Of a DNA stretch of 61,340 bases, positions 16,992 through 60,918 are shown one piece after another; position 1 is the first letter of the stretch, and the number at the start of each line of letters is the position of its first letter. This DNA is from Chitinophaga pinensis (GTDB lineage Bacteria > Bacteroidota > Bacteroidia > B-17B0 > Aurantibacillaceae). Location: assembly GCA_945860225.1 (NCBI GenBank), contig CAMAPT010000021.1, forward strand, positions 1-61,340. Reading direction: 5' to 3'. Below the pieces are notes generated by a model, which did no database searches, had not been told where the DNA came from, and worked only from the letters and a program-made list of their open reading frames with translations. Position numbers and translations under genes: made by a program.

Positions 16992-17972
16992 CTACTCTTT
17001 AATAATTCTTTTAGAAACAATGTTTCCATCATAACTCGTTACACGAACCATGTAAATTCCTCTTGATAAAAGACTTAAATCGAGCTTATGTTCCTGAGAT
17101 GTGATTAATAAATCTCCTACTTGATTAAATACTTCTACCTTATACAATGGCCGATCAGAATGAACGGTTAATGACTTAACTACCGGATTAGGATATAAAA
17201 TGACAGTATTTTCAAAAGGCTCAACATCATGTATATGAGTCGTTGTATTTAATGTTGTAAAATCATCTAAACAAAAATAAGCGGGCGTGTTCATTCCAAA
17301 ATTTCCAACATCACTCGATGATAACGTAAACAACAAACTATCTGCATTTCCCAAACTCGACAAATCAACATATTCCCATTTTTTAATGATATAATCTTGG
17401 GTATTATCTGCAAAACGAAAATCAGCTAAATAAAAGGTCACGCTATCTGCTGCCAAAGTGCCTTCTGCATATTTTTGAATTTTCAATTTAAACCAATCAG
17501 GATCGCTACCTGTAGCACCGCCAAACTTTTTCGCAAACAAATCTCCTTGTTGCATACTCAAAGTGGCATAGGTAGAATTAGTGACATAAAAACCACCAAT
17601 TTGGGTTGCCTTTCCATTAAATTTGAGTTTAGAGCCATTTTGACCAATCGCATAATTTACCGAACCATTATAACCTTTTCCTGTTCTTGCACTAAACTGA
17701 TTTCCGAAACCGGCTGTAACACTATCTCGTTTATTAGAATAAGCCCATCCTGACTCCCAGTACCCATATTCACTCCATTTATTTGGAAATACACAATCGC
17801 CGCTGCTAAATGAACTTGAAGAAGATACAGTCGAGGTTCCCATAGAACCGTCGTAAAAAGTATCAACCTGCAAGGTTAAATTTTCTAAATCAGCAATTCG
17901 TTGAGCTTTTAATCCAAATGTGGCAATAATAGCCAGAGATAATAGTTTTAATTTTAGTGTCAAGTTTTTCAT
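16992..17972 (-). CDS. DUF4465-like T9SS-exported protein under a cobalamin riboswitch
   Basis: A 326-residue secreted protein. Residues 1-23 are a signal peptide (FGLKAQ). About 25-245 matches the DUF4465 pattern: opening with 'tfyDGS', FPNKWSEYGYWESGWAYSN, GSKLKFNG, IGGFYVTNSTYATLSMQQGD, DWFKLKIQ, VTFYLADFRF, then PAYFCLDDF. About 255-326 is a type A sorting domain (LYPNPVVKSLTVHS to SKRIIKE). Proteins of this kind in gut Bacteroides have been linked to B12 uptake loci. The riboswitch 316 bp upstream supports that here. Its start codon directly abuts one copy of the 88-bp repeat. Confidence 0.75.
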   Translation of the reverse strand: MKNLTLKLKLLSLAIIATFGLKAQRIADLENLTLQVDTFYDGSMGTSTVSSSSSFSSGDCVFPNKWSEYGYWESGWAYSNKRDSVTAGFGNQFSARTGKGYNGSVNYAIGQNGSKLKFNGKATQIGGFYVTNSTYATLSMQQGDLFAKKFGGATGSDPDWFKLKIQKYAEGTLAADSVTFYLADFRFADNTQDYIIKKWEYVDLSSLGNADSLLFTLSSSDVGNFGMNTPAYFCLDDFTTLNTTTHIHDVEPFENTVILYPNPVVKSLTVHSDRPLYKVEVFNQVGDLLITSQEHKLDLSLLSRGIYMVRVTSYDGNIVSKRIIKE

Positions 17973-18060
17973 ATGTAGATTTTATTGTTTTTTAGTTGTC
18001 ATATGTTATACACCATGTATCTTTATTTGTGTTTGTGCGCGCAGCACATGGCTATTTCAT
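17973..18060 (-). repeat. 88-bp interspersed repeat, copy A (riboswitch leader)
   Basis: Read on the minus strand, this copy runs from ATGAAATAGCCATGTGC to AATAAAATCTACAT and is followed at once by the ATG of the DUF4465-like gene. It is almost identical to two tandem plus-strand copies at 25518-25603 and 25604-25691. Each unit can fold through AGCCATGT pairing with ACATGGCG and contains a GTGCTGCGCGCAC core. The repeat supplies the whole ribosome-binding region of the gene. Confidence 0.85.
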
Positions 18061-18287
18061 AAGTATAAGATGTTGGCTTTAAATGGTGTTATGGTCTATG
18101 CTTTAAATTAAAGTAATTCTTAAAACATCGTATTTTAATGTCACTGACTTCACCAAAAAGGTTGGCCATATGCAAAAAGAATATACGCCTATTTAAAAAT
18201 GGGCATAACACAATACAATCAATATGTATGTTATCTTTTTTCGACATATTTCACAACCCTATTTCGCGAAGGTTAGCGTGTTATATA

Positions 18288-18446
18288 ATTCGGCAGGTCT
18301 CCTGACTTGAGCATTAATTTTTGCACCTTCTCATTTATTTACAGAAAATAAACAATGGCTGTTTGCAAAAACGTTTAGCACTTACAGTTGCGCGACAGTT
18401 GTGGATTTACACCACATTCCCTTTTAATTTTGGTATTACCCAAAAA
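18288..18446 (-). ncRNA. Cobalamin (AdoCbl-type) riboswitch
   Basis: On the minus strand this stretch contains the conserved blocks of a cobalamin riboswitch in order: GGGAATGTGGTGTAAATCCA, ACTGTCGCGCAACTGTAA, and the 3' CAGGAGACCTGCC box. It lies 316 bp before the DUF4465-like gene on the same strand and should reduce expression of the two T9SS proteins when B12 is plentiful. The long leader after the aptamer holds only a weak stem (18187-18204) and repeat copy A. No clean terminator is visible, so control may be translational. Confidence 0.93.
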
Positions 18447-18542
18447 CCTAATTCGTACAAATATACATATTAAATAAACAAAAACAACAATGCCACAAGA
18501 TATCTCGTGGCATATGTCTTATATTCAATAAAACAAAACTGA

Positions 18543-18722
18543 TTATTGGTTAGTCGATTTAGTAGGCTCTATTTCGGGGGAAATAAGTGGTTCTATTTCA
18601 GGTAAAGGCTTTTCCGGTTCCAATTTTTCAGGTTTTGGAAAAACTTCGGGATGTATAGGTTCTTTGGGTGGAGATTGAGGAACCGGCTCTACTTCGGGTT
18701 TTTCTTTCGGAAAATCTTGCAT
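18543..18722 (-). CDS. 59-aa Pro/Glu-rich small protein
   Basis: ATG at 18722, TAA at 18543-18545. The product is almost entirely Pro, Glu, Lys and Ile/Leu in PxEPE-like steps, beginning MQDFPKEKPEVEPVPQ. It starts 11 nt after the stop of the REC-CRP regulator on the same strand, so it is very likely co-transcribed. There is no signal peptide, so it is probably cytoplasmic and extended. I know no family; the regular composition and spacing support translation. Confidence 0.55.
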   Translation of the reverse strand: MQDFPKEKPEVEPVPQSPPKEPIHPEVFPKPEKLEPEKPLPEIEPLISPEIEPTKSTNQ

Positions 18723-18733
18723 ATATCTAACGA

Positions 18734-19798
18734 TTAATTTTTCAAATCAATCAATTTTCTAGCTTCCAAAATCTTGATATGTCCATTTTGAAGTTCAATT
18801 AATCGTTCCGTTCTCAAGTCTGTTAAATTACGGCTAACTGATTCGGGAGATACTCCGGAAATAGATGAAATATCATCACGACAAACAGAAAAAGAAATAC
18901 CATTTTCTATTTGCGTATGGTATTTTTTAGCAAGATATAATATAGCCTCAGAAACACGTTTTCGAGCTGAATTATAAGCTAACTTAATCAGTTTATCATT
19001 AGTTTCAGAAAGATCGGTAGTTATGAATTTAATAAATTTGCCATAAAGCTCATTGTTAGTCAAAAGCAATTGATAAAAATCTTGTTTAGCAATTGATGCT
19101 ATTTCCGAATCTTCAATAGCCACGGCAGTATCCTCATATTTATTCGATTCTAAAAGCGAGGAATATCCAAAGAAGTCACGTTCCTTGTAAACTTGAGTAA
19201 TGTATTCTTTTCCTTGTTCGTTAGTTCTAAATGTTTTTATTTTCCCTGACACTAAAAAATAAAGGTACTTAGCCGAATCTCCTTCTATAAATAGAATTTC
19301 TTTTTTTCTGATTTTCTTTGGAGTAATTCGATCGCTCACCTCGTAGATACTTGTGTTAGATTCTTCTGAATTAGCAAAAAAATCTTCTAAATTTTTGAGA
19401 TCGTTTTTCATTAACTCCTTCAAAATTTCATATTTTTTTAAACGAGTGCTTACTAAACTCAACAGTTCATTACCATTAAATGGTTTAGTTAAATAATCGT
19501 CTGCTCCCAAATCCATTCCTATTCTAAAATCCTGTTTATCTGATTTAGCTGTCACAAAAATAAATGGGATGTGCTTAGTGTTTGGATTATTGGTAAGGCC
19601 TCTTAGCACACCATAGCCATCCAATTCAGGCATCATAACGTCGCAAAGAATGATATCAGGATTATTTTTCTGCGCCATGTCCAATCCTTCTTTTCCGTTT
19701 TTGGCACTATGAACAGTGTAACTGGACAATTCAAGAATCTCTTTCATATTTTCGCGCACATCATCACTATCTTCAATAATCAATACGTTTCTAGTCAT
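18734..19798 (-). CDS. Response regulator fused to CRP/FNR-type DNA-binding module (REC-cNMP-HTH)
   Basis: A 354-residue cytoplasmic regulator. Residues 1-120 are a receiver with phospho-acceptor Asp53 (DIILCDVMMPELDGYG), Thr83 and Lys105 (DDYLTKPF). About 150-250 is a cyclic-nucleotide-binding-fold domain (KKEILFIEGDSAKYLYFLVSG, ERDFFGYSSLL). About 275-350 is a Crp-type winged helix (CRDDISSISGVSPESVSRNL). It joins phosphorelay input to a CRP output, as in many Bacteroidota stress or low-oxygen regulators. No histidine kinase is nearby. A 16-bp AGTGA-N6-TCACT palindrome lies 70 bp upstream and may be its own binding site. Confidence 0.92.
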   Translation of the reverse strand: MTRNVLIIEDSDDVRENMKEILELSSYTVHSAKNGKEGLDMAQKNNPDIILCDVMMPELDGYGVLRGLTNNPNTKHIPFIFVTAKSDKQDFRIGMDLGADDYLTKPFNGNELLSLVSTRLKKYEILKELMKNDLKNLEDFFANSEESNTSIYEVSDRITPKKIRKKEILFIEGDSAKYLYFLVSGKIKTFRTNEQGKEYITQVYKERDFFGYSSLLESNKYEDTAVAIEDSEIASIAKQDFYQLLLTNNELYGKFIKFITTDLSETNDKLIKLAYNSARKRVSEAILYLAKKYHTQIENGISFSVCRDDISSISGVSPESVSRNLTDLRTERLIELQNGHIKILEARKLIDLKN

Positions 19799-19867
19799 TT
19801 TAAATATTTTTTTGTGTTTTATACTTTTTTATGGTATACAAAACTAATTTAAGTAACAAACAAAACT

Positions 19868-19883
19868 AGTGAGTTTAATCACT
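19868..19883. promoter_or_regulatory. CRP-type palindrome AGTGA-N6-TCACT upstream of the REC-CRP gene
   Basis: AGTGAgtttaaTCACT is a perfect 5-bp inverted repeat with the 6-bp spacer typical of CRP/FNR sites (TGTGA-N6-TCACA). It lies in the 125-bp space upstream of the REC-CRP regulator. Autoregulation is a reasonable guess. Confidence 0.45.
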
Positions 19884-19923
19884 TAACGGTGTAATCTTAA
19901 ACAAATAATTAGGATACAAAAAA

Positions 19924-20232
19924 TCAACCAATGAGTACATGTGGTATTATTGTAATCTTTTTTAGATGATTTAGTCCAAATTGTTTTATATAGCTAGGGA
20001 ATTCGTCAAAAGCCCCATCGTTCAACCCAACAGTGTTCCAAAATTGTTGTTTATGAGTTTCAGGCAAAAAACAATATTTTTCAGCCGGATAAATATATTC
20101 AATAACACCTTTCAAAACCTTAAATTGTACAAATTGCCCCTTTATAATTTGATTATCATGGGTTTGTATTTCCACTTCCTGAAAATGTGGATTGGATAGA
20201 TTATATATCTGAAATGAAACGGTTGATTGCAT
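19924..20232 (-). CDS. Conserved hypothetical protein (102 aa)
   Basis: A small soluble protein with a beta-rich N-terminus (VEIQTHDNQIIKGQFVQFKV) and a Trp/Phe-rich C-terminal half. I do not recognise it. It shares a divergent intergenic region with the fatty-acid desaturase and lies upstream of the REC-CRP regulator on the same strand (125-bp gap), so a link to that regulon is possible. Confidence 0.55.
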   Translation of the reverse strand: MQSTVSFQIYNLSNPHFQEVEIQTHDNQIIKGQFVQFKVLKGVIEYIYPAEKYCFLPETHKQQFWNTVGLNDGAFDEFPSYIKQFGLNHLKKITIIPHVLIG

Positions 20233-20543
20233 ATTTAGTTAAATAATAAGTTAGCGTAAAATCATTCAAATATGGCTTTATAAAAAATTCATATCCATGA
20301 CTATTTTCCATTTGAAGCATAATATCATGCATAATTTAATACGATTTATCATATCACAACTTGACAAACTTTTGCAAATGATGTGAGCATATCATTTATA
20401 TAAAAAAGAGGTGAACCATAATTTTACAATTGCTTAAATAATAAAACATGTGAAGCAGTCAAGCATTATTGACTAAACCAGTTATATCATCCTTCGGTAA
20501 ACTCAGAACTAGTATGACAATTGAAAACAAATAAAATCTAACC
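20233..20543. other. Divergent intergenic region with a 6-bp-spaced palindrome
   Basis: 311 bp without a gene between the 102-aa hypothetical and the desaturase. It holds the palindrome AGTCAAgcattaTTGACT at 20457-20474, 70 bp before the desaturase start. The remainder is A/T-rich with no further feature I can support. Confidence 0.45.
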
Positions 20544-21638
20544 ATGAAAACTTTAAAATTCATAAGCAACCACAACAATCAAAAACAATTTGCAGGCGAT
20601 GTTAGAAAAAACGTGAACGCGTATTTCAAAAAAAATAATCTCTCTACAAAAGGTAATACCTCTATGTATATAAAAACATTTATACTACTTAGTATCTACA
20701 TCATGCCTTTCATCATTATACTAAGCGCACCAATACATATTTGGATTGCAGGAACAATGGTTATTATCATGGGAATTGGAGAGGCGGGTATCGGCATGTC
20801 TGTTATGCACGATGCGGCTCATGGTGCTTTATCTAACAAAGCTTGGGTTAATAAACTATTTGCATCCACTATGTATCTTTTAGGTAGTAATACATTTAAC
20901 TGGCAAATTCAACACAACATCATGCATCACACATTTACCAATATATACCAATACGATCAAGATATTGAAACAAAGGCCGCTCTGAGACTTTGCGAGCATG
21001 CACCTAAAAAAAAACATCATCGATTTCAACACATTTATGCTTTCTTTTTGTATGGTATGATGACGTTATCAAAATTAGTTACAGATATTTTTCAGTTAAT
21101 AGCGTATAATAAAGCCGGAATAACTAAAGAACAAAAACACAGACCTAATATTGAACTATTAAGAATATGCTTTTTAAAAATCATATATTTTTCAATCATC
21201 ATAGGATTACCATTATTAATAACATCCTATAAATGGTGGCAAATTTTCATCGGATTTTCCATTCTACATATAACTGCCGGTATCATTATGAGTACAATAT
21301 TTCAAATGGCTCATGTGGTTGAAGGCGCTAAACAACCAACTCCAAACAAACATGGAATCATTGAAACGGAATGGATGGTTCATCAACTTCTAACTACCTC
21401 CGATTTTTCGAGAAATAATGCCATTTTAAACTGGTATGCGGGAGGTCTTAATTTCCAAATTGAGCATCATTTATTCCCAAACATCTGCCACATTCATTAT
21501 AAACACATAGCACCTATTGTGGAAAAAACAGCTAAACAATATGACCTCAAATACAACCTGAAACCTACGTTTTTAAGCGCCCTAAATTCTCATATTAAAC
21601 GCTTAAAAAAAATTGGACAAAAAAACAATTCATATTGA
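20544..21638 (+). CDS. Membrane fatty-acid desaturase (acyl-lipid/acyl-CoA type)
   Basis: A 364-residue di-iron membrane desaturase. All three His boxes are present: HDAAHG near residue 89, HNIMHH near 124, and QIEHH near 305. About four transmembrane helices lie between them. There is no fused cytochrome b5, so it resembles the DesA3/linoleoyl-CoA-desaturase-like bacterial group. It should introduce a double bond into membrane acyl chains with O2 and an external electron donor, which fits membrane adaptation to cold or stress. A small membrane-protein gene follows closely. Confidence 0.9.
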   Translation: MKTLKFISNHNNQKQFAGDVRKNVNAYFKKNNLSTKGNTSMYIKTFILLSIYIMPFIIILSAPIHIWIAGTMVIIMGIGEAGIGMSVMHDAAHGALSNKAWVNKLFASTMYLLGSNTFNWQIQHNIMHHTFTNIYQYDQDIETKAALRLCEHAPKKKHHRFQHIYAFFLYGMMTLSKLVTDIFQLIAYNKAGITKEQKHRPNIELLRICFLKIIYFSIIIGLPLLITSYKWWQIFIGFSILHITAGIIMSTIFQMAHVVEGAKQPTPNKHGIIETEWMVHQLLTTSDFSRNNAILNWYAGGLNFQIEHHLFPNICHIHYKHIAPIVEKTAKQYDLKYNLKPTFLSALNSHIKRLKKIGQKNNSY

Positions 21639-21681
21639 TACTCGCTTTTGATAATTGATGATAAATGATTACCTTTTGGTT

Positions 21682-21972
21682 ATGTTTTTCAAAAACAAAA
21701 GGTGGAATATAATTTTATTGGCGATAGCGCTCATTTTATTAGTGCCACTTATTGCTATGATATTTTCAGATGAAGTCAATTGGAGTGCCTTTGATTTTTT
21801 TGTAGCGGCAATACTTCTACTTTCAACAAGTTTTATATTGAATGTCACCGTCAGAAAAATAAAACATAGTGTTTATAAAATAGCCATTTGTATTACTATT
21901 TGTTTAGTTATAATCATTATTTGGGCCGAATTGGCAGTAGGTATATTCGATTCTCCATTTGCAGGTAATTAA
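21682..21972 (+). CDS. Small three-helix membrane protein
   Basis: A 96-residue protein from ATG 21682 (an alternative ATG at 21655 adds nine residues). It has three hydrophobic helices: IILLAIALILLVPLIAMIF, FFVAAILLLSTSFIL and IAICITICLVIIIIWAELAV. The ending (GIFDSPFAGN) looks like a conserved Bacteroidota hypothetical family. It is 43 nt or less downstream of the desaturase and may be in its transcript. The function is unknown. Confidence 0.6.
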   Translation: MFFKNKRWNIILLAIALILLVPLIAMIFSDEVNWSAFDFFVAAILLLSTSFILNVTVRKIKHSVYKIAICITICLVIIIIWAELAVGIFDSPFAGN

Positions 21973-22182
21973 AATAGGTGTAATCCCTAACCCTTTACAA
22001 AAGGAGAGAGGAAAATGAAAACTGTCGCACCCAAACACGGCTAACTTGATTGAATTTTCTCTCTTTTTTCACAAAAAAATGGTATCAAAAGGCCGTCGAA
22101 AAAGTACTCGATACGAAAATCCAAAGAGACAAAATTTTCTTCTCGAACAAACAGCGAAAACGAAATATTAATGTCCTTCTTT

Positions 22183-22830
22183 TTACAATTTTATATGAGT
22201 CCCATCTAATTTTCTATTTAAATAACTCATCACATCATCGTCACTAACTTGCGAGAAATCTTTAAAAAACGAACCTACAGCATGAAAAATAGATGGCCTT
22301 ATAATACATATAAAATCATCAACTACTCTACTAAATTTCGTGGCTATTTCTTGAGGTGCAACGGGCACAGCCACAATAATTTCTTTAGGAGAACTTTTTT
22401 TAACAGACTGAATAGCTGCTTTTATGGTGCTTCCTGTGGCTATACCATCATCTACTATAATCACCGTTTTGTTGGTTAAGCTTGCGCTTTTTTTAGTGCC
22501 CATATATAGAGCATATTTCTCTTTCAAATTTTTCAAAATCCGTTCAGACTCTCGCTGAATATATTCCTCAGTTACTTCATCCAAACTGCCATTTTCGATC
22601 ACACCACTCAATGACACAGAGCCTATTGCATACTCGGGATTATTAGGATGCCCAATTTTTTTTGATAAAAAAATTTCAAGTGGCATATTTAATTTTTTGG
22701 CTATTATATAACCTATAGGAACACCTCCACGAGGTATGGCCAAAACAACACCATCTTTACTTTTATATTTTGTCAATTGTTCAGCTAACTGATTAGCTGC
22801 ATCTATCCTATCCTTAAACATGAACTGCAT
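22183..22830 (-). CDS. Phosphoribosyltransferase-family protein (Rv0571c N-domain-like)
   Basis: A 215-residue cytoplasmic type I PRTase-fold protein. The PRPP-binding loop is VIIVDDGIATGSTI (residues 123-136), and the N-terminus has AIPRGGVPIGYIIA. The substrate is unknown, and such proteins outside purine/pyrimidine loci are often regulatory or stress-linked. It overlaps the preceding alpha/beta-hydrolase gene by 17 nt. In mycobacteria these two domains are fused in one dormancy-regulon protein (Rv0571c), so the pair probably works together. Confidence 0.85.
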   Translation of the reverse strand: MQFMFKDRIDAANQLAEQLTKYKSKDGVVLAIPRGGVPIGYIIAKKLNMPLEIFLSKKIGHPNNPEYAIGSVSLSGVIENGSLDEVTEEYIQRESERILKNLKEKYALYMGTKKSASLTNKTVIIVDDGIATGSTIKAAIQSVKKSSPKEIIVAVPVAPQEIATKFSRVVDDFICIIRPSIFHAVGSFFKDFSQVSDDDVMSYLNRKLDGTHIKL

Positions 22831-23473
22831 ATTCTAAATATTTTTTAAACCAATTTGTAGCCATTACAGACACTTGCTTTAACGCTCCGGGCTCTTCAAA
22901 TAGATGCGAAGCTTGTTTAACTATTTCAAGCTTTTTGGGACAGGTTAAGTTTTTGAAAACGTCCTGATTTAATTTTAACACATCCTGATCTAATTCTCCA
23001 ACAATTAGTAATGTTGGGGCTTTGATACGCGAGCAAAACGGATATGCTAAATCAGGTCTTCCTCCTCTTGACACAACAGCTTGAATCAAATCAGGCAAAA
23101 GTGCTGCTACCTTAAAAGCAGAGGCTACGCCTGTACTCGCTCCAAAATACCCTAAACTTAAATCAAGACACTCTTTTTTTGCAGATATAAATTTGGTAAC
23201 TTGTATCAATCGCTCTGCCAACAAATCAATATCAAAACGATTAGAATAGATTTGATCTTCCTCAATAGTTAATAAATCAAACAAAAAAGTCCCTATTGTT
23301 TGCAGATGCAACTCTTGAGCAACAAAATTATTTCTGGAGCTAAAACGGCTACTTCCGCTTCCATGAGAAAATAAAACGAGAGACTCTGCTCCCTTTGGCA
23401 AATAAAGTTCTCCGGATAATTCAACCCCATCCGACAAGCGAATAGTAACGGTTTCTTGAAATGTAGTATTCAT
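22814..23473 (-). CDS. Alpha/beta hydrolase (dienelactone-hydrolase-like)
   Basis: A 219-residue serine hydrolase. The nucleophile elbow is FGASTG (Ser113), the acid is in VGELDQDV (Asp162 or 164), and His190 is in KQASHLFEEPG. The oxyanion-side loop is FSHGSGSSRFS. It is shorter than classical dienelactone hydrolases and has no signal peptide. It overlaps the phosphoribosyltransferase gene by 17 nt, so the two are translationally coupled. The substrate is unknown. Confidence 0.88.
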   Translation of the reverse strand: MNTTFQETVTIRLSDGVELSGELYLPKGAESLVLFSHGSGSSRFSSRNNFVAQELHLQTIGTFLFDLLTIEEDQIYSNRFDIDLLAERLIQVTKFISAKKECLDLSLGYFGASTGVASAFKVAALLPDLIQAVVSRGGRPDLAYPFCSRIKAPTLLIVGELDQDVLKLNQDVFKNLTCPKKLEIVKQASHLFEEPGALKQVSVMATNWFKKYLEYAVHV

Positions 23474-23655
23474 CAGTTGTAATATTTAAAATTGATAAAT
23501 CGACGCAGCTATTTTTTCAAAAATAATTGAACATGCTACATTTTGTAATGTCTAGTTCTACCAAACAGCCTGACTATAATCATAGCTGTAATTACCTAAC
23601 CATATTTAATTAGAGGTAGCCATTCAACTGTTATTCATGAATTCTTTTATTCACT

Positions 23656-25416
23656 ATGAGCACAATTAACAATCAACAACTTTCCACAATATTTAAGGAA
23701 ATGTCTAACCTATATAAATATATTGGAACACCAGAACGCTTTAGAGCCTTATCTTATAAAAAGGCTTCTAATGTTTTAGACGACTTACCAAACGATGTTA
23801 CCGAATACATTCAAAACAATACATTAGAAGATTTACCGGGAATAGGTGAAAGCATTGCAGATAAAATTCGGGAATATATAAATTCAGGTACCATAACAAA
23901 ATATGAACAACTGAAAAAAGAAATTCCTCATGAACTATTGGAAATGATGGAAATTAAAGGGTTTGGGCCTCAATCCATCAAAAAAATTCATACAGTACTC
24001 AATATTACTTCAAAAAATGAATTAATGAAAGCGTTGCAATCCGGAACTATTGCAACGATAAAAGGATTTGGTAAGAAAAGAACAGAGGCTATGTTAGAGA
24101 ATTTAAATCTATATCAGCAGACCGAAAAACGTATGTTATTAAGGGATGCTTTGGCCATAGGAGAAAGTATATTGAAAAAACTACAAAAAATACCCGAAAT
24201 AAAAAATATTGAACTAGCAGGAAGCTTGAGAAGAAGAAAGGAGACCATTGGCGATATTGACATCCTGATATCTGCTAATAACCGTGATAGAAAAAAAATC
24301 ATCCATGATTTTACCAATTCTGATATGGTAAAAAAAATACTTGCAAAAGGTAATACCAAAGCAAGTATTACTCTGAAACAAAATGATAAGCAGGTAGATG
24401 TGAGAATAATAAACGATTTGGAATGGGGTTCTGCCTTACTCTATTTTACCGGTTCAAAAGAACACAACATTCATTTACGCACTGTTGCGAAAGAAAAACA
24501 TATGAAATTATCGGAATACGGACTTTTTAACCAAATATCATACGTTAGAATTGCTGGAGAAACAGAAGCATCAATCTATCAAGCACTTGGCTTACAAAGC
24601 ATTCCACCAGAAATGCGAGAAGATAAAGGTGAAATTAAACTAGCAAGCGAACAAAAAATACCAACTCTAATTTCTTTAAAAGACATAAAAGGAGATTTAC
24701 AGATGCATAGCAACTGGAGCGACGGTACACAAACTATAGAAGAAATAGCAAGATTCATAAAAAACCATTTTAACTATAAATACATAGCCATAACAGACCA
24801 TAGTCAATCATCGCGTATTGCAAATGGATTAACAGAGCAACAAATTCTTAAACAGATTATAGAAATTAAAGCAATTAATGAAAAACTTGATGAAGCATTT
24901 ATAAAAACCGGTATTGAAGTTGATATATTGGCCAATGGAAATCTTGATATATCTGATGAAATTATGGCCCAATTGGACTGGGTAACAGCATCTATTCATT
25001 CAGGATTTAAACGCGATAATACAGATAGAATTATAAAGGCTTGCCAAAATCCTTACGTTTCTTGTATTGGCCATCCTACCGGAAGACTTATTGGCGAAAG
25101 AAATCCTTATAAGCTTGATATTAAATCTATCATTGAGACTGCGGTATCAACTCATACAGCTCTTGAAATTAATGCTCAACCTCAACGAATGGATTTAAAG
25201 GATGATTATGTATTTTTAGCTCGTGAAAAAGCAGTTAAATTGGTTATCAGTACCGACAGTCACTCTATTCAGCAGTTAGATTTTATGACACTTGGGGTAG
25301 ATTTGGCTAAAAGAGCTTGGTGTAAACCTTCGGATATTTTAAATACAATGACATGGGAAGAGATTGAAAAATGGTTAAAAACTAAAAAACGTCACTTAAT
25401 GCATGAAATGGCTTGA
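23656..25416 (+). CDS. polX: DNA polymerase/3'-5' exonuclease PolX
   Basis: A 586-residue bacterial X-family repair polymerase of normal length. The N-terminus holds helix-hairpin-helix units (LEDLPGIGESIADKIREYI, IKGFGKKRTEAML). The polymerase palm motif GSLRRRKETIGDIDILI (about 187-203) carries the catalytic Asp pair. From ~345 a PHP exonuclease domain follows with its metal ligands: LQMHSNWSDG, ITDHSQS, GIEVDIL, ASIHSG, CIGHPTGRLIG and STDSHS. It acts in base-excision and gap repair. It diverges from the hydrolase/PRTase pair. Confidence 0.95.
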   Translation: MSTINNQQLSTIFKEMSNLYKYIGTPERFRALSYKKASNVLDDLPNDVTEYIQNNTLEDLPGIGESIADKIREYINSGTITKYEQLKKEIPHELLEMMEIKGFGPQSIKKIHTVLNITSKNELMKALQSGTIATIKGFGKKRTEAMLENLNLYQQTEKRMLLRDALAIGESILKKLQKIPEIKNIELAGSLRRRKETIGDIDILISANNRDRKKIIHDFTNSDMVKKILAKGNTKASITLKQNDKQVDVRIINDLEWGSALLYFTGSKEHNIHLRTVAKEKHMKLSEYGLFNQISYVRIAGETEASIYQALGLQSIPPEMREDKGEIKLASEQKIPTLISLKDIKGDLQMHSNWSDGTQTIEEIARFIKNHFNYKYIAITDHSQSSRIANGLTEQQILKQIIEIKAINEKLDEAFIKTGIEVDILANGNLDISDEIMAQLDWVTASIHSGFKRDNTDRIIKACQNPYVSCIGHPTGRLIGERNPYKLDIKSIIETAVSTHTALEINAQPQRMDLKDDYVFLAREKAVKLVISTDSHSIQQLDFMTLGVDLAKRAWCKPSDILNTMTWEEIEKWLKTKKRHLMHEMA

Positions 25417-25498
25417 GTAAAGATATAGAAGGAAAGTATAGCCAGGTCATCTAGGCTTAAAATATTCAGCAATCGCATTCTTGTTTATATTGATGGTA

Positions 25499-25532
25499 AC
25501 ATGGCTATTTGATATTTATGAAATAGCCATGT
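25499..25532. repeat. Perfect 12-bp inverted repeat at the head of the tandem repeats
   Basis: ACATGGCTATTT (25499-25510) pairs exactly with AAATAGCCATGT (25521-25532). The right arm is the beginning of repeat copy B; the left arm is a short inverted piece of the same unit. It could be a remnant of an inverted copy. Confidence 0.6.
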
Positions 25533-25603
25533 GCTGAGCGCACAAAAACAAATGAAGATACATGGCGTATAACATATGACAACTAAAACAATAAAATCTA
25601 CAT
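25518..25603 (+). repeat. 86-bp interspersed repeat, copy B (tandem 1)
   Basis: Runs from ATGAAATAGCCATGTGC to ATAAAATCTACAT and is followed directly by copy C. It differs from copies A and C by a few substitutions in the GTGCTGAGCGCAC core and a 2-bp shorter A-run. It does not overlap a gene. Confidence 0.85.
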
Positions 25604-25691
25604 ATGAAATAGCCATGTGCTGCGCGCACAAACACAAATGAAGATACATGGCGTATAACATATGACAACTAAAAAACAATAAAATCTACAT
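25604..25691 (+). repeat. 88-bp interspersed repeat, copy C (tandem 2)
   Basis: Nearly identical to copy A (opposite strand at 17973-18060) and copy B. Its last bases CTACAT overlap the 3' end of the cupin_8 gene on the minus strand and supply that gene's TAG stop. Internal potential stem: AGCCATGT with ACATGGCG. Confidence 0.85.
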
Positions 25692-26549
25692 ATGAATCAT
25701 TTGATTAGCCTTTTTTTGAGCAATCTGCTGTTTCGTTTCTAACCATGATTTGCCAAATAATTTATTGAGTAATTTATCTATTGGCATGTATAATCCCAAA
25801 TTTATCAATCCCTCAAGAGGATGTTTAATGTTATGAGAAATTTTTCGGTAACTTACCGAAAAACTTCCCTCAAGATAAGTCATGTAATGCCAATAGCCGG
25901 CAGGCATATACAAACTATCTCCATCATTGAGTTCAAAATCATAACCCTTAACAAATTTCAATCCGGGGTATTTTTCATAATCAGGTGCGTCCAAATCAAC
26001 CAATGAATAGGTGTTCAATGGCAAACGATATAACAAGTTGGAATGGCAAGGCGGAACCAACACTACACGTTTTTTTCCACCAAAATGAGTGTGAAGTACG
26101 TTTGAACAATCAACATCATAATGAATACGAACTGTGGTATTTTTACCACCAAAAAACATAAAACCAACATCATCCAACAAGCCTTTGAATATTTCAGGGC
26201 AAGGAAATTCTTTTTTCAATTGAGGATTATGTTTAAATAAATTACATAAAAAAATTCTCAAATCCGTTGGCTCATCCTTGGCAATAATATCCAGATAATC
26301 ACCAAACCTCATCTTCAAATCTGCTGATGTATATGCCGTAGCAGATGTTTTTTTATTTGAATTATCATAAATATCCATCATCAAATTCCCCATAGTAGAT
26401 TTAAAATAATCAATCGACCATTTTTCATCAGCTAGTGTTCCTTTAGACAATTCACGAATGATAACTGGTATTTGTGTCCGAAAATAATTTCGATTAAAAT
26501 CTTTAACACTAATGGTGTCAAACGTATCAATCTTTAAGTTGAAATGCAT
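25686..26549 (-). CDS. Cupin_8 / JmjC-like Fe(II)/2-oxoglutarate oxygenase domain protein
   Basis: A 287-residue cupin-like protein. The metal triad is visible as HYD (His143, Asp145) and His221 in MPAGYWHYMTY. The framework HFGGKKRVVLVPP and LNDGDSLYMPAGYW is typical of the FIH/JMJD5-like cupin_8 group, which hydroxylate proteins or small molecules. Its start is 1 nt after the stop of the nitroreductase fusion gene, so the two form an operon. Its last codon and TAG stop lie inside repeat copy C. The substrate is unknown. Confidence 0.88.
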   Translation of the reverse strand: MHFNLKIDTFDTISVKDFNRNYFRTQIPVIIRELSKGTLADEKWSIDYFKSTMGNLMMDIYDNSNKKTSATAYTSADLKMRFGDYLDIIAKDEPTDLRIFLCNLFKHNPQLKKEFPCPEIFKGLLDDVGFMFFGGKNTTVRIHYDVDCSNVLHTHFGGKKRVVLVPPCHSNLLYRLPLNTYSLVDLDAPDYEKYPGLKFVKGYDFELNDGDSLYMPAGYWHYMTYLEGSFSVSYRKISHNIKHPLEGLINLGLYMPIDKLLNKLFGKSWLETKQQIAQKKANQMIHM

Positions 26550-46432: not shown

Positions 46433-49024
46433 CTATTTTTTAATGATTAATTTTTCTATATCGGCCAATTTAGATACTGAATATACGTCGTTAGGTTTTT
46501 CCGCCAATGCTTCTGCATATTTAGCTTTAGCTTCCTGATATCTTTTCATTTTAAATAATTCATCGGCTCGTTTGATGGTTTCCTTGTATTTAGAAACTCC
46601 AAGTGCTTTTGGTATGGAATATTTTGTATCAATAACATCTGTTTTTTCGTTTTTAGGTTCCGAAATCGTTGAATTCTGCGGAGCCAAAACAGGTATAGGT
46701 TGTTGTAATTTATCTTTTTCCGTTTTAACTAATTGATCATTGGTTGTAGCTAGTTTTTCTGAATTAGCTTTTTCCGCCGCCTCCTTTTCCGCAATCACTT
46801 TGTCTTTGGCTAATCTTTCTGCTTCCAATTTCTCAGCGGCTAACTTTTCTGCTTGTGCTTTCTCCAAAGCCAGTTTTTCTGAATTAGCTTTTTCCGCCGC
46901 CTCTTTTTCCGCAATCGCTTTTTCTTTGGCTAATCTTTCTGCTTCCAATTTCTCAGCGGCTAACTTCTCAGCCTGTGCTTTCTCCAAAGCCAGTTTTTCA
47001 GTTTTTGCCTTTTCTGCCGCCTCTTTTTCTGCAATGACTTTTTCTTTGGCTAATCGTTCTGCTTCCAATTTCTCAGCGGCTAACTTCTCAGCCTGTGCTT
47101 TCTCCAAAGCCAGTTTTTCAGTTTTTGCCTTTTCTGCCGCCTCTTTTTCTGCAATGACTTTTTCTTTGGCTAATCGTTCTTCTTCCAATTTCTCAGCAGC
47201 TAACTTCTCTTCTTGCGCTTTCTCTGCAACCAATATTTCTGATTTTACTTTTTCCGCAGCCTCCTTTTCCGCAATCACTTTTTCTTTGGCTACTCGTTCT
47301 GCTTCCACTTTCTCAGCCGCTAACTTTTCTGCTTGTGCTTTCTCCAAAGCCAGTTTTTCTGAATTAGCTTTTTCCGCCGCCTCCTTTTCCGCAATCACTT
47401 TGTCTTTGGCTAATCTTTCTGCTTCCACTTTTTCAGCCGCTAACTTTTCTGCTTGTGCTTTCTCCAAAGCCAGTTTTTCTGCTTTCGCCTTTTCTGCCGC
47501 CTCTTTTTCTGCAATGGCTTTTTCTTTCGCTAAACGCTCAGCCTCCTCTTTTTCAGCCGCTAACTTCTCTGCCTGGGTTTTCTCCAATGCCAATTTTTCT
47601 GATTTGGCCTTTTCTGCCGCCTCTTTTTCTGCAATCGCTTTTTCTTTGGCTACTCGTTCTGCTTCAACTTTTTCAGCAGCCAACTTCTCAGCCTGTGCTT
47701 TCTCCAAAGCCAGTTTTTCTGATTTTGCTTTTTCAGCAGCCTCCTTTTCCGCAATCACTTTTTCTTTGGCTACTCGTTCTGCTTCCACTTTTTCAGCCGC
47801 TAACTTCTCTGCCTGGGCTTTTTCTAAAGCCAGTTTTTCTGATTTAGCTTTTTCCGCCGCCTCTTTCTCTGCAATTGCTTTTTCTTTAGCTAATCTTTCT
47901 GCTTCAACTTTGTCAGCCGCTAACTTCTCTGCCTGGGCTTTCTCCAAAGCCAATTTTTCCGTTTTTGCCTTTTCTGCCGCCTCTTTTTCTGCAATCGCTT
48001 TTTCTTTGGCTACGCGTTCTGCTTCGAATTTTTCAGCAGCCAACTTATCAACCTGTGCTTTTTCTAAAGCCAGTTTTTCTGCTTTTGCTTTTTCCGCAGC
48101 CTCTTTTTCTACAATGGCTTTTTCTTTCGCTAAGCGTTCTGCTTCCAATTTTTCAGCAGCCAACTTCTCAACCTGTGCTTTTTCTAAAGCCAGTTTTTCT
48201 GCTTTTGCTTTTTCCGCAGCCTCTTTTTCTAAAATGGCTTTTTCTTTCGCTAAGCGTTCTGCTTCCACTTTTTCAGCCGCTAACTTCTCTACTTGCGCTT
48301 TTTCTAAAGCCAGTTTTTCCGCTTGGATTTTTTTTTCTTTTAAACAAGCGTCTACCTTACTTAATTGAACAATAGGATAACGTTCGGCAGACAATATTCC
48401 AATGGCTTTTTCATAATTCAATTTGGCCAATTCACAATCTCCCTTACTTAAAGCAATATCACCGGCATTATTAGTGGTTGTAAATCGTTCCATAAGTTCG
48501 TTTTCAGAACTCCTCACCTGAAACAATGATTCCAAAATTCCGTTTGTATAGTCATCATCATCATCAAATTTTTTTCCCTTATCAACATATATGACTTTTA
48601 CTAACGGTTGGGATAAAATCGAATAATTAACATTTGGGAAAGCTTTTGCCATGACTACACCTTCTATTCCAAAAGTTGGCATATATTTTTCGCTAGCTAT
48701 ATTTTCAGGAACATTCATGGTAGATACAGAAAAACGTTTTGTATTACATCCAGGATAAGAAACCGTTATAACATACTCTCCATTCGCTGGAATATCTAGT
48801 AAAAAATCGCCGTTCGATTCACTTTGAATCTGTTTAATGGTTTCATTACCCCTAATTAACGAAATCGTAGCACCTGCCAAATCAGATTCTATGACATCAA
48901 TTTTATTCGTTAACTGAAATGTGCGTAATTCCACCCGACTTCTTAGTTTTAGACTCCAATTTTGGGCAATCAATGAAGTGGTAAACAGCAGAAAAACAAT
49001 TATTATCGTAAAAAACTTACTCAT
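46433..49024 (-). CDS. Exported protein with thirteen 40-residue coiled-coil repeats and a C-terminal TPR
   Basis: An 863-residue protein. Residues 1-20 form a signal peptide (TTSLIAQ). About 45-110 is a beta-rich carboxypeptidase-regulatory-like domain (VIESDLAGATISLIRGN) and about 190-225 is a TPR-like unit (KGDCELAKLNYEKAIGIL). Thirteen units of exactly 40 residues follow, of the type LALEKAQAEKLAAEKVEAER plus LAKEKAIAEKEAAEKAKSEK, encoded at 46754-48313. A final TPR-like helix pair (KRYQEAKAKYAEALAEKPND) closes it. It resembles TolA-style Ala/Lys/Glu rods and may span the periplasm. Confidence 0.85.
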   Translation of the reverse strand: MSKFFTIIIVFLLFTTSLIAQNWSLKLRSRVELRTFQLTNKIDVIESDLAGATISLIRGNETIKQIQSESNGDFLLDIPANGEYVITVSYPGCNTKRFSVSTMNVPENIASEKYMPTFGIEGVVMAKAFPNVNYSILSQPLVKVIYVDKGKKFDDDDDYTNGILESLFQVRSSENELMERFTTTNNAGDIALSKGDCELAKLNYEKAIGILSAERYPIVQLSKVDACLKEKKIQAEKLALEKAQVEKLAAEKVEAERLAKEKAILEKEAAEKAKAEKLALEKAQVEKLAAEKLEAERLAKEKAIVEKEAAEKAKAEKLALEKAQVDKLAAEKFEAERVAKEKAIAEKEAAEKAKTEKLALEKAQAEKLAADKVEAERLAKEKAIAEKEAAEKAKSEKLALEKAQAEKLAAEKVEAERVAKEKVIAEKEAAEKAKSEKLALEKAQAEKLAAEKVEAERVAKEKAIAEKEAAEKAKSEKLALEKTQAEKLAAEKEEAERLAKEKAIAEKEAAEKAKAEKLALEKAQAEKLAAEKVEAERLAKDKVIAEKEAAEKANSEKLALEKAQAEKLAAEKVEAERVAKEKVIAEKEAAEKVKSEILVAEKAQEEKLAAEKLEEERLAKEKVIAEKEAAEKAKTEKLALEKAQAEKLAAEKLEAERLAKEKVIAEKEAAEKAKTEKLALEKAQAEKLAAEKLEAERLAKEKAIAEKEAAEKANSEKLALEKAQAEKLAAEKLEAERLAKDKVIAEKEAAEKANSEKLATTNDQLVKTEKDKLQQPIPVLAPQNSTISEPKNEKTDVIDTKYSIPKALGVSKYKETIKRADELFKMKRYQEAKAKYAEALAEKPNDVYSVSKLADIEKLIIKK
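46754..48313 (-). repeat. 13 x 120-bp coding tandem repeat
   Basis: Thirteen in-frame copies of 120 bp (40 codons) with no indels. Two 120-bp stretches starting near 46961 and 47081 are nearly identical, pointing to recent duplication. The opposite strand therefore shows long chance open frames (46740-48368), which I do not treat as genes. Confidence 0.92.
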
Positions 49025-59445: not shown

Positions 59446-59543
59446 CTATTCTAAATGCTTAAATATAGCTTCACTTGCAAAACCCGAGTCGGCTCGTAAC
59501 AAACCAATGGTTTTGTTTTGTAAAATCGATAAGGTCTGGAATT
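59446..59543 (-). pseudogene. Relic of an IS1380/IS4-type transposase
   Basis: A minus-strand frame encodes FQTLSILQNKTIGLLRADSG followed by FASEAIFKHLE then stop, the second-Asp region typical of IS1380-like DDE transposases (LLRADSGF). It is cut off at its upstream side by the left end of the IS3-family element, and the remainder of the gene is not found beyond the IS. Confidence 0.55.
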
Positions 59544-59639
59544 CCTAATAAAAAGTGGACAAAGTTTAGTTAACACCCAGGTGGAGTTACTACCTTTGAG
59601 TGGACAAAAAAGTTAAGCCTATAAGCCCTAACTTTAAAC

Positions 59640-59979: not shown

Positions 59980-60756
59980 ATGTGTAAGGTATTAAAAGTC
60001 AGTAAAAGTGGTTACTATAAATGGGTACATAAAGTGCTTTGTAAACAAGAGCTAAGGCGCTTGATGCTTATAGAAGAAATACATAATGTATACCGAGCAA
60101 GTAGATGTAGATACGGAAGCCCAAGAATAACTAAAGAACTTAATATGCATGGTATAGAAGTCTCTCAGGTATTAGTAGCTAAATTAATGAAACAAGAGCA
60201 TTTAAGAAGTATTGTCAGAAAAAGGTATAAAGTAACAACCAACTCGTCTCATAAATATCCAGTAGTAGAAAACAAGTTAAATCGTGAATTTACAGTCAAA
60301 GAAGAAAACATGGCTTGGGTATCAGATATAACTTATATAAACACCACTCAGGTCTGGACATATTTAACAACGGTAATAGATTTATTTGACAGAAAGGTTA
60401 TTGGTTGGGCACTTAGCGACACAATGAAAGCTAACGAAACCGTTATACCTGCTTTTAACATGGCAAAATGTAATAGACCTATATTTAATGATCAATCTTT
60501 AATTTTTCACTCTGACAGAGGAATACAATACGCTTGCGAAGAGTTTGTAGATATTCTAAACAAAAGCAAAATCATCATTAGAAGCATGAGTAGAAAAGGA
60601 AATTGCTGGTATAATGCCGTGGCCGAAAGTTTTTTTAAAACGCTAAAAACAAAACTCGTTTATCATCACAAATATCAAACTAGAAAACAATTAGAACTAT
60701 CAATATTTGAGTACATAGAAACATTTTATAATACAAAACGAAGACACAAAAATTAA
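59980..60756 (+). CDS. IS3-family transposase OrfB (integrase core, C-terminally frameshifted)
   Basis: A 258-residue DDE transposase; coding probably begins further upstream in the same frame (from about 59920) as part of the OrfAB fusion. The HTH_21 region has [15 protein letters not shown]. The DDE triad is in [24 protein letters not shown] and [14 protein letters not shown] 1-nt loss near 60754 gives a premature stop at RRHKN. In the adjacent frame the lost tail [16 protein letters not shown] continues to a TAA at 60816-60818. The catalytic core is intact but the element is probably dead. Confidence 0.88.
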
Positions 60757-60918
60757 ACAACTTAACAATTTTAGAATACCAAAAATCAATTAATAATAAC
60801 CAAAAAAATGTAGCCTAAGTGTTAACTAAACTTTGTCACCTTTTTATTAGGAATTCCAGTATGAATTTTAAACAAAAATGAACACGATTCCGCTATGAGT
60901 CCATTTTATTTAATTTAT

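Follow-up and report, generated by a model that had tools for sequence, protein, structure and literature searches.

Three near-identical short repeats lie on contig CAMAPT010000021.1 of Chitinophaga pinensis (the 61,340-nucleotide stretch analysed here, referred to as the window), one of them ending at a start codon and another supplying a stop codon, and the locus raises the question of what kind of sequence would abut genes in this way. A covariance model places copy A at 17968..18061 on the minus strand and copies B and C at 25517..25608 and 25603..25696 on the plus strand, slightly wider than in a first-pass annotation of this DNA that had described all three. Copies B and C form a tandem pair with a common 6-nt TATGAA junction, which ends the first unit and opens the second. 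The span 17973-25691, given there to cover all three copies, is not one object, with ~7.4 kb of other genes between copies A and B. The copies probably form part of a family of Bacteroidia mobile elements that are non-autonomous and very small (~85-90 nt) and enter DNA by strand exchange within the sequence (T)ATGAA. This reading draws on insertion relative to empty sites at two loci, enrichment at start codons, three covarying helices (P1, P2 and P3), partial clustering of copies by genome and a patchy distribution across the class.

A dispersed family with empty orthologous sites

A mobile or amplifying element had been proposed from the three copies, and searches of the full genome and of relatives bear this out, with far more copies than three. 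In the C. pinensis genome (2.9 Mb, 47 contigs), BLASTN with copy C returned 51 matches at E<=0.001 and the covariance model at least 48, which amounts to ~50 copies, standing singly or in arrays of two or three at a spacing of ~86-90 nt. At least two of the 51 BLASTN matches (C9:101218 and C2:836) have the look of ordinary gene leaders, similar to the element at its right end only, and several others are partial. Elsewhere the element was found by BLASTN in 22 of 60 relatives, and by the model, whose E-values are rough, in 56 of 87 genomes of the order and in 35 of 295 genomes sampled from the class, where the matches fall patchily in 18 families. An exact pattern search found the element in 39 stretches of named records, which are uncultured Bacteroidota metagenome-assembled genomes (MAGs), while plasmid, phage and viral-contig collections, each searched with one query or one exact pattern, gave no match. 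Copies also tend to group by genome. Among 79 copies from six genomes with at least three copies in the sample, the nearest copy lay in the same genome for 45, against a mean of 18 and a maximum of 32 after shuffling; the grouping is strong in C. pinensis (29 of 34) and clear in two other genomes (6 of 8 and 4 of 6). A second short repeat (CTTCGATAAACTCAGGACAA-like) lies within or beside element copies at three places in this genome (C36:5650-5700, C1:134350-134400 and C37:11860-11900).

Comparison of sites with and without the repeat shows that orthologous sites can be empty. Two downstream genes named by Pfam were followed, thymidylate synthase thyA (PF00303) and a metallo-beta-lactamase-fold protein (PF13483), with 29 relatives' loci fetched per gene, of which 24 and 22, respectively, were read. 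The thyA start region of C. pinensis reads ...cttaatATGAAATAG[element]CATATGAAACAATATC; in 21 of the 24 relatives' loci the start could be located and no element was present (one of these has only a 9-nt leader), and in three the start was not located. The metallo-beta-lactamase-fold gene carries two tandem units in C. pinensis, and 21 of the 22 relatives' loci have a located start and no element, the start of the last not being located. Scanning all 58 relatives' loci with the model placed no element at either gene's start; the sole match in a relative (L086) lies beyond thyA, and the three other matches are the C. pinensis copies themselves. At thyA, the leaders of four relatives align with the C. 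pinensis leader up to the start region, and the insert follows ATGAAA. Four relatives' leaders likewise align up to the start region of the metallo-beta-lactamase-fold gene, where the last bases before the ATG have diverged and the position of the gap is ambiguous by a few bases. Set against the empty sites in relatives, both insertions are shown, as far as sequence alignment can place them, to split the target at ATGAA.

Start codons as probable insertion sites

Most readable non-tandem right ends of the element double as the start codon of the gene that follows. The 51 C. pinensis matches were sorted by hand into 14 that run into a next unit, 29 readable non-tandem ends, and eight set aside as partial, right-end-only or with an end other than ATGAA, TTGAA or GTGAA (among them C14:41060, where ATGGAA stands before a likely gene); the terminal ATG opens an open reading frame (ORF) of at least 57 codons in 21 of the 29. 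From relatives, 101 model matches in 87 loci, with tandem calls re-sorted by eye, gave 96 distinct ends, comprising 67 gene starts, 17 tandem junctions, six short ORFs, two ends without ATG and four open at the end of the contig or locus. Ends reading ATGAAATACC... and ATGAAATATC... were counted as gene starts and not as tandem, and the terminal ATG opens an ORF of at least 60 codons in 67 of 75 non-tandem ends. When this ORF rule is applied to noncoding TATGAA sites of the relatives' loci, 28 of 78 open a gene, and the enrichment over this background has a Fisher p of 5e-12 for the relatives and 0.001 for C. pinensis. Many Bacteroidia genes begin with ATGAA, as do 39% of the predicted starts in the loci read, so that the common product of insertion is an element lying exactly in a start codon. 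Genes starting ATGAAT, ATGAAG or ATGACA may still show ATGAAATAG or ATGAAATAA at the left junction, and since the same ATGAA stands at both junctions despite the differing next codon, the exchange probably takes place inside ATGA(A). Other downstream genes in C. pinensis include some that we take, from their sequences, to encode a rhodanese, an RluF-like protein, superoxide dismutase and ccoQ/ccoP.

In the window, this rule is borne out by copy A, which lies between the leader and the coding region of a DUF4465 and Por_Secre_tail gene (16992..17972, minus strand). As annotated, the start ATG of this riboswitch-controlled gene is the last ATG of copy A (17972-17970); the cobalamin riboswitch itself (18275..18466, minus strand) lies upstream and is an independent feature. 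There is no clean empty site for this gene: orthologs in 13 other genomes lack the element, but their upstream regions resemble other genes. Abutment at both a start and a stop had been taken as a sign of mobility, and only the start-codon half holds as a family rule. On the opposite strand, the cupin_8 ORF (25686..26549, minus strand) does owe its final codons and its TAG stop to copy C; its product ends in ...QIAQKKANQMIHM here and in ...QIAENRINRYFS or similar in the nearest relatives. The 3′ end of this gene is ordinary in the closest relatives at the place where copy C sits in antisense here, and a model scan found no element in seven relatives' cupin loci. The stop codon is incidental, because it stems from a single antisense insertion into the last cupin codons; the right end of copy C, ATGAA, opens only a 16-codon ORF.

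A covarying fold of three helices

The unit starts with TATGAA|ATAGCC and ends in CATATGAA, and the consensus of a 25-unit alignment reads T-ATGAA-ATAGCCATG...P2...A-rich...TGGCTA-TAC-CATATG-ACAA.TAAAAAACAATAA...CTA-CATATGAA. The repeat was suspected from the start of being structured, and the pairing arms and core pointed out at that time are P1 and P2 of the fold described here. P1 pairs TAGCCA with TGGCTA and has the paired variants TAACCA/TGGTTA, TAGTCA/TGACTA, TACCCA/TGGGTA and TATCCA/TGGATA, and P2 is TGTGC/GCACA or TGTTT/AAACA. In P3, an internal CATATG pairs with the terminal CATATG, start codon included (more generally, internal CATNNN with terminal N'N'N'ATG), and its paired variants include CATAAG/CTTATG, CATGTG/CACATG, CATCTG/CAGATG, CATATT/AATATG and CATATA/TATATG. 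All three helices show compensatory changes. In the 25-unit MAFFT alignment, 88% of cells pair and both sides have changed in eight of 17 pairs (33 cells versus 10.9 after shuffling), with a covariation score that none of 500 shuffles matched. Among 92 distinct matches in relatives, an alignment fitted to the model so that its pair counts lean towards structure, double changes occur in 14 of 17 pairs and in 106 cells, versus 26.7 after shuffling and 9-35 in the slid controls, which were lower in covariation. RNAalifold, applied to the 25 units, found P2 and P3 and missed P1; an additional G in one class of copies displaces the 3′ arm of P1, and these were counted as unpaired at three P1 pairs (10, 9 and 11 of 25).

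The fold may act as RNA or as single-stranded DNA. In P1 and P2, G-U cells outnumber A-C cells by 54 to 7 without the last P2 pair and by 58 to 22 with it (one column gives 26), an excess that makes the mRNA-sense strand the likelier one to fold; P3 has no such excess (11 versus 14). Single copies fold weakly better than shuffles in the case of the three window copies (RNA z of -1.0 to -2.2; DNA z of about -1.0 for copy C on either strand), and one relative's unit folds clearly better (-3.5 and -3.3). No Rfam family scored above its gathering threshold for the element, including eight relatives' loci (best 23.9 bits versus 55). A short variant that lacks the P2 region (ATGAAATGCCAAGCATTCCATGTG...CACATGAAA) occurs in genome G116 (L328, 22-110, minus strand).

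Proposed mechanism, competing explanations and the search for a mover

Upon insertion, the element's ATAGCC would come to stand directly behind the ...TATGAA of the old leader, and in most copies this junction amounts to a start codon with a stop after it. The right end, an A-rich initiation region ending in CATATGAA, would become the new leader and start codon, leaving the coding sequence undivided. In A content the element leader exceeds other leaders (0.53 versus 0.44), and it would be expected to support normal translation. Tandem arrays may arise from new insertions into the element's own TATGAA junction. We infer that a trans-acting recombinase moves the element as a folded single strand or a small circle; with either form, the circle being joined at TATGAA, both single and tandem insertions would result. 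The internal CAT of P3 could act as a guide that base-pairs with the ATG at both ends and in the target, for which the nearest analogy, in the matching passages of one paper, is the guide-sequence logic of IS200/IS605 (PMC6006769). That this amounts to a new class of mobile element, finding start codons by base pairing through the internal CAT, bringing its own initiation region, which would let it enter essential genes without harm, and using a kind of enzyme not yet linked to such elements, is a tentative proposal that we hold to be possible at best. The element would be placed among the small non-autonomous mobile repeats.

As a rule, mobile DNA either keeps clear of important genes or harms them. 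This element enters starts such as that of thyA with the coding sequence intact and the leader rewritten, and it does so in many lineages of uncultured Bacteroidia. Should pairing with ATG prove to govern insertion, the family would constitute a natural system for targeting start codons, very small in size and served by an unknown enzyme. Leader sequences that recur in genomes and could be annotated in error as regulatory RNAs might also find their explanation here. We found no account of a start-codon-targeting repeat in the literature searched, which included passages of PMC10969869, PMC2229807 and PMC6006769 and did not cover preprints and most subscription papers.

Several observations weigh against a mobile element that targets start codons. 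No mover was found. Eight of the 29 C. pinensis ends, copy C among them, open no gene, and the enrichment is higher in the relatives' sample, a non-random one whose loci were chosen by exact pattern and best score, than among the C. pinensis copies. Selection acts on the right end only where a gene makes use of it, so the enrichment could partly reflect retention and not targeting, and the data do not separate the two. Grouping by genome is weak or absent in three MAG sets, where the nearest copies are mostly in other genomes (same genome for 4 of 17, 2 of 9 and 0 of 5), and the structural lean of the 92-match alignment belongs here as well. In a comparison of 72 ends with duplicates kept, the folding energy of the element leader is slightly lower than for the estimated original leader (mean -3.3 versus -2.7 kcal/mol, p=0.005) and like that of the background (-3.3 kcal/mol), so this leader is not less folded. 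Finally, start codons of homologous genes carry the element in more than one genome: BLASTP among 92 downstream proteins gave six groups (L178/L191, L146/own L012, L177/own L020, L160/L203/own L025, L221/L238 and L204/L211, where own denotes C. pinensis), which presumably represent ccoP, rhodanese, RluF-like, DUF2027-like and epimerase-like genes and one further pair. In this list, three other pairs are the same record twice and two pairs are weak (24-27% identity). Because homologous starts carry the element in several genomes, some copies may be old and kept; the element sequences at these starts are mostly clearly different between genomes, and repeated insertion appears equally possible.

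The presence at homologous genes could also be read as a sign that the repeat is mainly a cis-regulatory RNA leader controlling downstream translation, with P3 sequestering the start codon, and that it was spread or kept for that function. The covariation of the NNNATG/CATN'N'N' pairing and the G-U excess in P1 and P2, with the mRNA-sense strand likelier to fold, would agree with this. We nevertheless regard it as unlikely, given that the downstream genes share no common theme in our judgement, that eight of the 29 C. pinensis ends have no gene, that P3 is only a 6-bp, mostly A-U helix without G-U excess and with a loop of ~24 nt in the window copies, and that amplification and tandem arrays look selfish. 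Translational bypassing, in which ribosomes would start at the old ATG AAA, meet UAG and hop to the new ATGAAA, has a precedent in T4 gene 60, and bypassing elements have a conserved stop and matching take-off and landing codons. Many copies do have ATG AAA TAG directly before a stem, and their landing ATG is likewise followed by AAA. The stop varies here (TGG, TAC, TAT and TCC also occur), the second codons AAT and AAG of some genes do not match, and ordinary initiation might need no more than a downstream ATG preceded by an A-rich leader, which leaves bypassing extremely improbable.

Returning to mobility, the element can be compared with known small elements and their enzymes. Miniature inverted-repeat transposable elements (MITEs) and small bacterial mobile sequences such as BOX, RUP and ERIC are alike short, non-autonomous and patchy. 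Unlike MITEs, the element has no terminal inverted repeats in the 25-unit alignment, its ends being TATGAA|ATAGCC and CATATGAA, has no variable target-site duplication, with ATGAA on both sides of most copies as a fixed 5-6-nt core, and supplies the next gene's start codon. Repetitive extragenic palindromic (REP) sequences and REPINs, moved by REP-associated tyrosine transposases (RAYT, TnpA_REP), are likewise small, dispersed, structured, non-autonomous and often clustered, but our element inserts at ATGAA start codons, has 85-90 nt and three helices, and lacks the GTAG/CGTC foot, the foot of its hairpin being AATAGCC in most copies. With the ends and small derivatives of IS200/IS605 it shares a left-end hairpin, a core kept at the left and an internal stretch that may pair with the boundary sequence. 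The internal CATNNN covaries with the terminal N'N'N'ATG, and its pairing with the left end is possible. It differs in that no transposase gene is seen, that the guide-like CAT comes after the left hairpin, on its 3′ side, and that the right end has no second hairpin of its own. A MITE or REP-like derivative moved by an IS200/IS605-type or REP-associated Y1 transposase, with the internal CAT as guide, is an unlikely explanation, even if the same core at both ends, the subterminal hairpin and the guide-like right-end pairing resemble the guide-tetranucleotide mechanism in the passages concerned (PMC6006769). The Y1 family PF01797 has no match in C. pinensis (99.97% complete, ~50 copies), nor in G015 and G019 (87% and 76% complete). 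In relatives, the reading covered eight longer (181-229 aa) Y1 genes, which score below 16 other PF01797 matches; the eight adjoin other palindromes, and the model finds no element in those loci. A diverged Y1 below detection is possible. Integron attC sites, with core GTTRRRY / RYYYAAC, are also short, folded recombination-like sites in tandem arrays, and the element resembles them in architecture, with an outer helix of CATATG, spacers that are short and unpaired, an inner helix and a terminal structure that varies. One integron-type integrase is encoded in C. pinensis (TIGR02249, E=1.7e-66, with 224.8 bits against a curated cut-off of 265), so the element could be an attC-like site moved by it. 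This is very unlikely: the element's core is TATGAA, its junctions have no GTT/AAC and none of the attC core, it is dispersed at start codons and it contains no cassette ORF. A GTTAG core, attI-like in our judgement, follows the integrase gene in three of nine cases read (C. pinensis itself, G005 and G132) and GTTAT in a fourth. The integrase group also occurs in G007 (no copy) and G012 (one copy), and in G015 (20 copies) neither of the recombinases read, which score above two further matches, belongs to it.

As candidate movers, the enzymes fare accordingly. The Y1 transposase is unsupported, with no PF01797 match in C. pinensis and eight element-free Y1 loci in relatives. A reverse transcriptase is likewise unsupported: RVT_1 has no match in C. 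pinensis or in seven more of the 13 element-rich genomes searched (eight of 13 in all), being present in five of these 13 and in six of 10 element-poor genomes. Among the three full-length PF00589 matches in C. pinensis, length and similarity mark two as Xer-like, which leaves the integron-type integrase, an unlikely mover in view of its different core, as we judge it, and its imperfect co-occurrence with the element. A crude scan near the copies, by regular-expression motifs only, recognised no recombinase, its matches being judged spurious. In G239 an element lies beside a recombinase (L301), a Xer-type gene present in most compared genomes, and of two weak model matches near paired recombinases in G116 (L328), one is the short variant and the other lies inside a coding region.

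Some further features were seen along the way. The integron-type tyrosine recombinase of C. pinensis (TIGR02249-like; L316, contig C33, 315-1718, minus strand) lies downstream of dnaK, and an attI-like GTTAGTGGC core with palindromes follows the gene near the contig end (positions ~120-240); two relatives have similar recombinase genes with GTTAG cores behind them. The REP-associated-type Y1 transposases of relatives (L137-L144) stand beside palindromic repeats of their own (CCTGACAGG, CCGAAAGG, GTCGCGGACTTGTAGTCCG and others), which are unrelated to the element. Elsewhere in the window, a 120-nt (40-codon) repeat array occupies 46628-48368 within a large minus-strand ORF (46433-49024), and a 46-nt inverted repeat (59536-59581 and 60814-60859, 91% complementary, 1.2 kb apart) surrounds an ORF at 59980-60756.

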